A DNA stretch of 64,000 nt. It comes from Verrucomicrobiia bacterium (GTDB lineage Bacteria; Verrucomicrobiota; Verrucomicrobiia; Limisphaerales; JADLHS01). The notes beneath the pieces are model-generated. The model was given only the letters and a program-made list of their open reading frames with translations. It searched no databases and was not told where the DNA came from. The stretch lies in contig WYBW01000178.1 in assembly GCA_011525685.1 (NCBI GenBank), positions 1 to 64,000 on the forward strand, in the 5' to 3' direction. Shown one piece after another: positions 12,468 through 26,247 of the stretch (positions are counted from its first letter, which is position 1; the number at the start of each line of letters is the position of its first letter). The translations under genes were made by a program, and so were the position numbers.

Positions 12468-12547
12468 GACGGATTGTCATAAACGCCGAGCCGGGCAGTC
12501 AAGGACGGGGAAGCAACGGGGAAGCCGCCGCGCGCAGCTCATTTTGT

Positions 12548-12840
12548 TGCCGGCGGCGCTGCCGGGGTAGCGCAGGTTTCCAACCTGCCGTGTCGCCGGT
12601 TTCCAACCGGCAGGTCAGGGCCAGGTGGAGCGCGTCCGGACAGTCGGCGCTACCGAAGATCCCGGCGCCCTGCCGGCGGCGCTGCCGGGGGTAGCGCAGG
12701 TTTCCAACCTGCCGTGTCGCCGGTTTCCAACCGGCAGGTCAGGGCCAGGCGGAGCGCGTCCGGACAGTCGGCGCGGCTGCGGATTGGAAATCCGCGATCC
12801 GGCCGACTGGAAGTCGGCGCTACCGAAGATCCCGGCGCCC
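12548..12840. repeat. Tandem repeat of 123 and 170 bp built from hairpin units
   Basis: Copy 1 is 12548-12670 and copy 2 is 12671-12840. They are nearly identical apart from one extra G, one C/T change and a 46-bp segment present only in copy 2. Each holds the hairpins GCAGGTT/AACCTGC and GCCGGTT/AACCGGC with TCC loops. The extra 46 bp carries GCGGATT/AATCCGC and GCCGACT/AGTCGGC with GGA loops, and is bounded by the 8-bp direct repeat AGTCGGCG at 12766-12773 and 12812-12819. It fills most of the 451-bp gap between two minus-strand genes; no gene is seen there. Confidence 0.85.
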
Positions 12841-12918
12841 CGACAAGAAACTGAGATGCGCCCGAAGCGGCCAAGCCGCAAATCGCCGCCGCAGGTCAAC
12901 CAGCACTGGTCCCTCGCA

Positions 12919-26079: not shown

Positions 26080-26247
26080 CGGCGCAGACGTCCAGTCTGC
26101 CGCATTTCGGGTTTCCAATTCGCGCACTCCTGCCTGCACCGGCGATTTCGAGTGTTGCGCCGGTGAGCCGAATGGGTTCGGCGATACAGTTGGATTGAAA
26201 ACCTGCGCCACCACCGGCACCACCAAGGCAGCATGGCTCTGTCGCCC

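Follow-up and report, generated by a model that had tools for sequence, protein, structure and literature searches.

A REPIN of two-hairpin REPs in a probable ISKra4-type MITE of a Verrucomicrobiota genome

Locus and tandem copies

The window is the whole stretch of DNA that was analysed (64,000 nucleotides). It belongs to contig C166 of a Verrucomicrobiota MAG (assembly of 6.73 Mb, 97.8% complete). Two tandem copies of a core are found in it: copy 1 (12548-12670, + strand, 123 bp), which has no right twin-hairpin arm, and copy 2 (12671-12840, + strand, 170 bp), which is full. When aligned, the copies are identical at 86/87 positions on one side of a block and at 29/29 on the other; copy 2 has 46 additional bp, one additional G in a G run and one SNP. 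The near-identical copies and the 46 bp of copy 2, as described by the sequence-only reading, are borne out by this alignment. Direct repeats do bound the block as stated there; their length is 9 bp and not 8 bp (AGTCGGCGC; spacer copy, 12766-12774; copy in the stem of the outermost hairpin, 12812-12820; both + strand). The 46 bp missing from copy 1 are positions 12775-12820 of copy 2, and a single AGTCGGCGC is left at the deletion junction (12642-12650, + strand).

The left twin-hairpin REP of copy 1 (12567-12611, + strand) consists of GTAGC, a hairpin (12572-12588), the linker CGTGTC and another hairpin (12595-12611). That of copy 2 (12691-12735, + strand) consists of GTAGC and the hairpins 12696-12712 and 12719-12735. 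It is followed by a spacer of 43 nt (12736-12778, + strand; inner hairpins 60 bp start-to-start) and by the right twin-hairpin REP (12779-12823, - strand: hairpin 12779-12795, GATCCG, hairpin 12802-12818, GCTAC). The REP foot, GT[AG]G at a palindrome, is present as GTAGC at 12567 and 12691 and as GCTAC at 12819 and 12649.

A second element (1-93) is cut by the contig end and retains a hairpin (4-20), twin hairpins (48-64 and 71-87) and GCTACC; the hairpin-GATCC-hairpin-GCTACC architecture seen earlier near the contig start is thus real, at 48-93. Other contigs (e.g. C1, C14 and C59) also begin inside such elements; the assembly thus breaks at the repeats, and the copy numbers given are minimum values. 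A decayed four-hairpin element, read by eye, lies at 26084-26215 (GCAGACGTCCAGTCTGC ... GCCGAATGGGTTCGGC GATACA ...). Several of its stems are mismatched, and it overlaps long ORFs on both strands.

Architecture of the repeats in the genome

All stems match GCNGNYT-loop-ARNCNGC (stem, 7 bp; loop, 3 nt). Genome-wide, the strict hairpin pattern GCNGNYTGGAARNCNGC matches at 460 places, about equally distributed between the two orientations, versus 2 for the reversed control; the two-hairpin pattern has 151 versus 0. The units therefore occur genome-wide and are not confined to the window. The architecture is fixed in a 1.56-Mb sample of stretches picked partly for repeat content, whose counts are not genome rates: GTAGC, hairpin, 6-nt linker (mostly xGTATC), hairpin, 42-43 nt, and the mirror image ending in GCTAC. 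Twin hairpins are 23 bp apart start-to-start, inner hairpins 59 or 60 bp apart, and full four-hairpin elements with these spacings dominate the sample.

The elements are thus inverted pairs of REPs with GTAG outside, as in REPINs, but each arm carries two hairpins 23 bp apart instead of the one hairpin per REP. The 46-bp twin-hairpin unit of the sequence-only reading is real; judged from its layout, it is just one arm of such an inverted pair, i.e. half of a REPIN made of two-hairpin REPs, and it lies inside a MITE, which that reading had not foreseen.

No match was obtained in an Rfam search of the hairpin element, and a known RNA family was rejected. No poly-T tracts were found at the hairpins. 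DNA folding z-scores range from -3.0 to -5.6; they merely restate the palindromes.

Covariation of the stems

Sixty distinct arms from 11 genomes were chosen solely by GTAGC and loop letters (GTAGC N6 TTCCA N18 TTCCA), i.e. without stem letters, to avoid circularity. In these 60 arms, 97.7% of cells are paired versus 86.8% after shuffling, 116 cells are changed on both sides versus 33, and the covariation score is 0.356 versus 0.146. The shuffle test is inflated by related copies; the control in which partners are slid preserves relatedness and leaves at most 44% of cells paired. Chance pairing was rejected on the basis of the reversed-pattern, shuffled and slid controls. The element at 12530-12863 departs from the MITE consensus at three pairs, all of them fully compensated. 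Compensating stem changes, proposed from the two units of the window, are hence found across copies and genomes, and the proposed selection for pairing is supported by the test on the 60 arms.

The MITE around the copies

Both copies lie in a 334-bp MITE (12530-12863), recognised by its TIRs, its target-site duplication and the family alignment. The left TIR (GCGCGCAGCTCA, 12530-12541, + strand, 12 bp) has 2 mismatches to GGGCGCATCTCA, and the right TIR (TGAGATGCGCCC, 12852-12863, - strand) is the exact reverse complement of GGGCGCATCTCA. The left target-site duplication (GAAGCCGCC, 12521-12529) matches the right one (GAAGCGGCC, 12864-12872) at 8/9 positions. The family norm is 213 bp; this element is longer because of the internal tandem duplication.

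Alignment of the flanks of the 59-spacing elements gave sharp ends and elements of 213 bp (GGGCGCATCTCA...TGAGATGCGCCC). About 40 sampled copies are such 213-bp MITEs with 12-bp TIRs and mostly 9-bp duplications. Of the 56 TIR pairs in the list, which also contains chance pairs, 29 have a target duplication of 9/9 (20 pairs) or 8/9 (9 pairs), the chance rate of either being 3.3e-4. Genome-wide, 32 full copies have both TIRs exact, versus 0 in the control. These elements are short, non-coding and multicopy and have TIRs and target-site duplications, as MITEs do. In the 60-spacing class of the 1.56-Mb sample, 16/17 elements have neither TIRs nor target duplication and, from their sequences, look like free REPINs. 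The core of 12530-12863 belongs to this class by its spacing, yet the element has TIRs and an 8/9 duplication; an ordinary unit without TIRs, which fits the 16/17 others, was rejected for it. Neither an insertion polymorphism nor an empty site came to light; the gene next to the element has no usable homologue in 10 relatives.

MITE copies in ORFs of at least 250 aa number 13/41 versus 32.7 expected; such avoidance is expected of any insertion. Divergence was measured on 42 copies chosen by TIRs and non-hairpin words. Its mean is 2.1% at hairpin positions versus 7.6% in the spacer and subterminal DNA, i.e. 3.7x less (Mann-Whitney p 8e-8, positions taken as independent), and loops are the most uniform part (0.26%). 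Selection and gene conversion would both fit this conservation.

The host also has a second MITE subfamily (183-189 bp) with ends GGGCGCATCTTG, a four-hairpin core with shorter spacers and target duplications from 9/9 down to 5/9 (L063:10155-10337, L075:2800-2988, L126:19660-19842 and L116:4248-4430).

ISKra4 elements with matching ends

A genome of the same family as the host (G004) has a 1500-bp IS (L335:1303-2802) with ends GGGCGCATCTCAGTTTCTTGCAGGG and a 9/9 duplication (AACCTGATC). It has 14 bp of its end in common with the MITE and encodes a transposase of the ISKra4 family (above the NCBIfam cut-off). A 2645-bp element of G024 (L298:1017-3661) has the same 12-bp ends and a 9/9 duplication, and carries genes for an ISKra4 transposase and for a DruA protein. 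The TIRs are therefore common to the MITE and to autonomous elements, and a 9-bp duplication is found at these ends around both ISKra4 elements as well as around the 20 MITE copies at 9/9. The DruA-like gene of L298:1017-3661 (G024:C35) lies between the left end and the transposase gene (PF14236, E 1.5e-33); this is the family of the Druantia defence proteins. No ISKra4 transposase was found by protein or HMM searches in the 97.8%-complete host assembly (G000), so that the driver of the MITE is now either absent or unassembled.

RAYT linkage

Eight Y1_Tnp matches are found in the host genome. One is a RAYT of 245 aa (G000:C1:15811-16548), with full four-hairpin elements on both sides. Their stems (GCAGACT, GCGGATT, GCCGACT, GCAGGTT) are the four stems of the MITE, in the same order. 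This gene is the linked REP-associated tyrosine transposase that had been proposed as a thing to look for. The other host Y1_Tnp genes (L009-L015) have flanks without these hairpins. The RAYT scores above the cut-off of Pfam Y1_Tnp; NHVH (148-151) and Y210 (in YIRNNP) are invariant in A1. The top solved structure matched by its profile is 4er8, TnpA-REP of E. coli (E 2.9e-9). It reaches 74.7 bits against NCBIfam NF047646, below the 80-bit cut-off. It represents a distant clade of the REP-associated transposase family. Recognition and cleavage of ssDNA are known for other RAYTs (PMC8266576).

Among the order and the named genomes, relatives of the RAYT are found mostly in Verrucomicrobiota MAGs, with some in Acidobacteriota. 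They carry twin-hairpin repeats of the same geometry and other sequences (e.g. L163, GCAGAGT-tgc-ACTCTGC; L174, GTGG-GGCAGGTC-tct-GACCTGCC). At least two twin-hairpin motifs are present in the flanks of 28/110 relatives and of 0 when flanks are shuffled. On a quick tree of the 110 proteins, the twin trait needs 13 changes versus 25.1 after shuffling (0/500), and most twin-labelled relatives fall in two clades within Verrucomicrobiota. In more distant RAYTs, the pairs are built of single hairpins or are missing. Outside Verrucomicrobiota, RAYTs of Acidobacteriota also have twin hairpins at their flanks (L201, L206, L217, L233 and L264), with the foot GGAAC in place of GTAGC in L217 and L233.

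RAYT-like Y1_Tnp domains are also embedded, in frame, in housekeeping proteins of large size, namely PriA (3'BD - Y1 - DEAD), a Helicase_C_2-containing helicase and a UTP-glucose-1-phosphate uridylyltransferase. The loci with in-frame Y1_Tnp include L181:601-3561 (G061:C13), L015:1-2550 (host, C22:34661-37885) and L178:1-3462 (G044). In L181, the open PriA frame contains both the inserted RAYT and the matching REP pairs on its flanks (exact repeats of 25 and 34 bp), an arrangement that resembles an in-frame REPtron. Many relatives have open frames of 600-1560 aa around the Y1_Tnp domain.

Recurrence in the order

Of 320 genomes of the order, 24 contain the TIR-gap-GTAGCGC pattern. The host accounts for 116 matches and the genomes of family f53 for several each; elsewhere the matches are single and scattered, and some of them are due to chance. 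Individual reading showed TIR-bounded elements with REP hairpins in L361 (G152, duplication 9/9), L367 (G217, 9/9), L362 (G063, 7/9; the loops of its four hairpins are TGC/TGT), L355 (G013, 6/9; its four hairpins are quite different), L365 (G161, 7/9) and L138 (G073). MITEs with the same ends and, as far as they were read, no twin-hairpin core are found in L268 and L300 (full) and in L303 and L308 (ends only). Similar chimeras of ISKra4 ends and REPs with other hairpin sequences thus recur in several families of the order. The same ends with and without the core, together with the varied hairpins, imply either several captures or an old capture with co-diversification.

Origin of the element and alternative explanations

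The element is very probably an ISKra4-type MITE with a captured REPIN, which later underwent an internal tandem duplication and, in copy 1, a slippage deletion. The MITE would have been inserted at the locus with a 9-bp target duplication (now 8/9). The core and parts of the subterminal DNA would then have been duplicated in tandem inside it, which explains why an intact copy 2 stands beside copy 1. Copy 1 would have lost its right arm by slippage or recombination between the spacer repeat and the repeat of the outermost stem. Copy 1 is a deletion product and not the ancestor, since the full form with fixed 23- and 59/60-bp spacings is the norm and since the junction is a 9-bp direct repeat. 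The spacer copy of AGTCGGCGC is a chance match to a stem word. Replication slippage over the hairpin between the 9-bp repeats best accounts for the 46-bp loss; unequal exchange between tandem copies could be an alternative route. The before/after pair is, in either case, an ordinary hairpin-stimulated deletion. Mobilisation would involve two enzymes, an ISKra4 transposase that moves the MITE and a RAYT that recognises the hairpins as ssDNA, while selection or homogenisation may keep the hairpins intact inside the MITE. As direct mover of 12530-12863, the RAYT was rejected, TIRs and target duplication favouring an element of the TIR/DDE type.

Of the gain or loss left open by the sequence-only reading, loss is retained. 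An older copy 1 and insertion of the 46-bp unit in copy 2, with AGTCGGCG as target duplication, is extremely improbable: a direct repeat does flank the block as a target duplication would, but the insertion would have to recreate exact genome-wide spacings of a full form that is the norm, the right-hand repeat forms the last hairpin's stem and hence belongs to the element, and RAYT/IS200-type enzymes are not known to duplicate their targets. Very little probability is also given to a simple REPIN/BIME cluster with the RAYT as its sole mover and with coincidental terminal repeats. Tandem clusters of REPs that include flanking DNA have been described (PMC3733652), and the 16/17 sampled 60-spacing elements devoid of TIRs and target duplications would fit such a cluster. 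Against it stand the exact right TIR and the left TIR with 2 mismatches, both where they are expected, the 8/9 duplication, and the occurrence of the same ends in about 40 further sampled copies.

It is unlikely, although less so, that the hairpins have a host function, as RNA or as terminators, with transposition being incidental. The scarcity of MITE copies in long ORFs, the GU pairs in stems and the conservation of hairpins inside MITEs would agree with such a role, but the first is expected for any insertion, Rfam matches and poly-T tracts are lacking, orientations are equally frequent, and the hairpin type tracks the RAYT clade while sequences differ between species. A larger share of probability, short of an even chance, goes to gene conversion with many other copies, instead of functional selection, as the source of the uniform MITE hairpins: the same hairpin words at hundreds of places are as many potential donors and the loops are the most uniform part, but compensatory stem changes across copies and genomes indicate that pairing is selected, in the wider family at least. 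A broader proposal is made tentatively: REPIN-MITE chimeras may be a recurrent class of mobile element in Verrucomicrobiota that is driven by two independent engines. ISKra4-type DDE transposases would act on the ends and RAYTs would act on the twin hairpins in single-stranded form; continued use of the hairpins by the RAYT or by the host would keep them under selection in the MITE.

Comparison with known systems

REPINs are thought to move solely with their RAYT, via ssDNA; MITEs move by DDE transposases, via dsDNA. Dual-signal elements in several families, with hairpin sequences unrelated to one another, would mean that ordinary insertion sequences can spread domesticated RAYT repeats. This would help to explain how REPIN families amplify or persist after their RAYT is gone. 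Being heritable in RAYT clades, the twin-hairpin REP also provides natural variants for studying how RAYTs read their substrates.

Each of the kinds involved (REPs, REPINs, RAYTs, MITEs, ISKra4 elements) was known before. The repeats resemble the REPINs and REPs mobilised by RAYTs (Bertels and Rainey 2011, PMC3116915; Nunvar 2010, PMC2817692) in their GTAG foot, covarying palindromic stems, inverted pairs, high copy number and RAYT gene flanked by the same repeats. The published definition of a REP used in PMC6006769 has one hairpin; here there are two in tandem (GTAGC-hairpin-GTATC-hairpin). According to the main text of PMC3733652 (Di Nocera 2013), the GTAG REP superfamily includes the verrucomicrobium Opitutus terrae, RAYT-like genes are flanked by TIRs, some of them double palindromic, and REP units of Pseudomonas adjoin other stem-loops. 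GTAG superfamily membership, TIR-flanked RAYT-like genes and double palindromes are thus common features; clade-wide twin-hairpin GTAG REPs and REPINs bounded by DDE-type TIRs and target duplications are absent from that main text. In the consulted passages of the open-access papers (PMC3116915, PMC3733652, PMC6006769, PMC8266576, PMC2817692, PMC3686654), the twin-hairpin GTAG REP as a clade trait was not found, nor was a REPIN inside an ISKra4 MITE. The open-access literature searched gave no match for ISKra4 together with Verrucomicrobi-.

The element resembles ISKra4-family MITEs in its TIRs of 12-26 bp starting with GGGCGCATCTCA, its 9-bp target duplication, its non-coding content and its ends, which are those of L335. 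It differs from them in two ways: no ISKra4 transposase was found in the host assembly, and where IS remnants would be expected inside, there is a REPIN whose hairpins are conserved. From known REPINs, the one at 12530-12863 differs in sitting inside a MITE.
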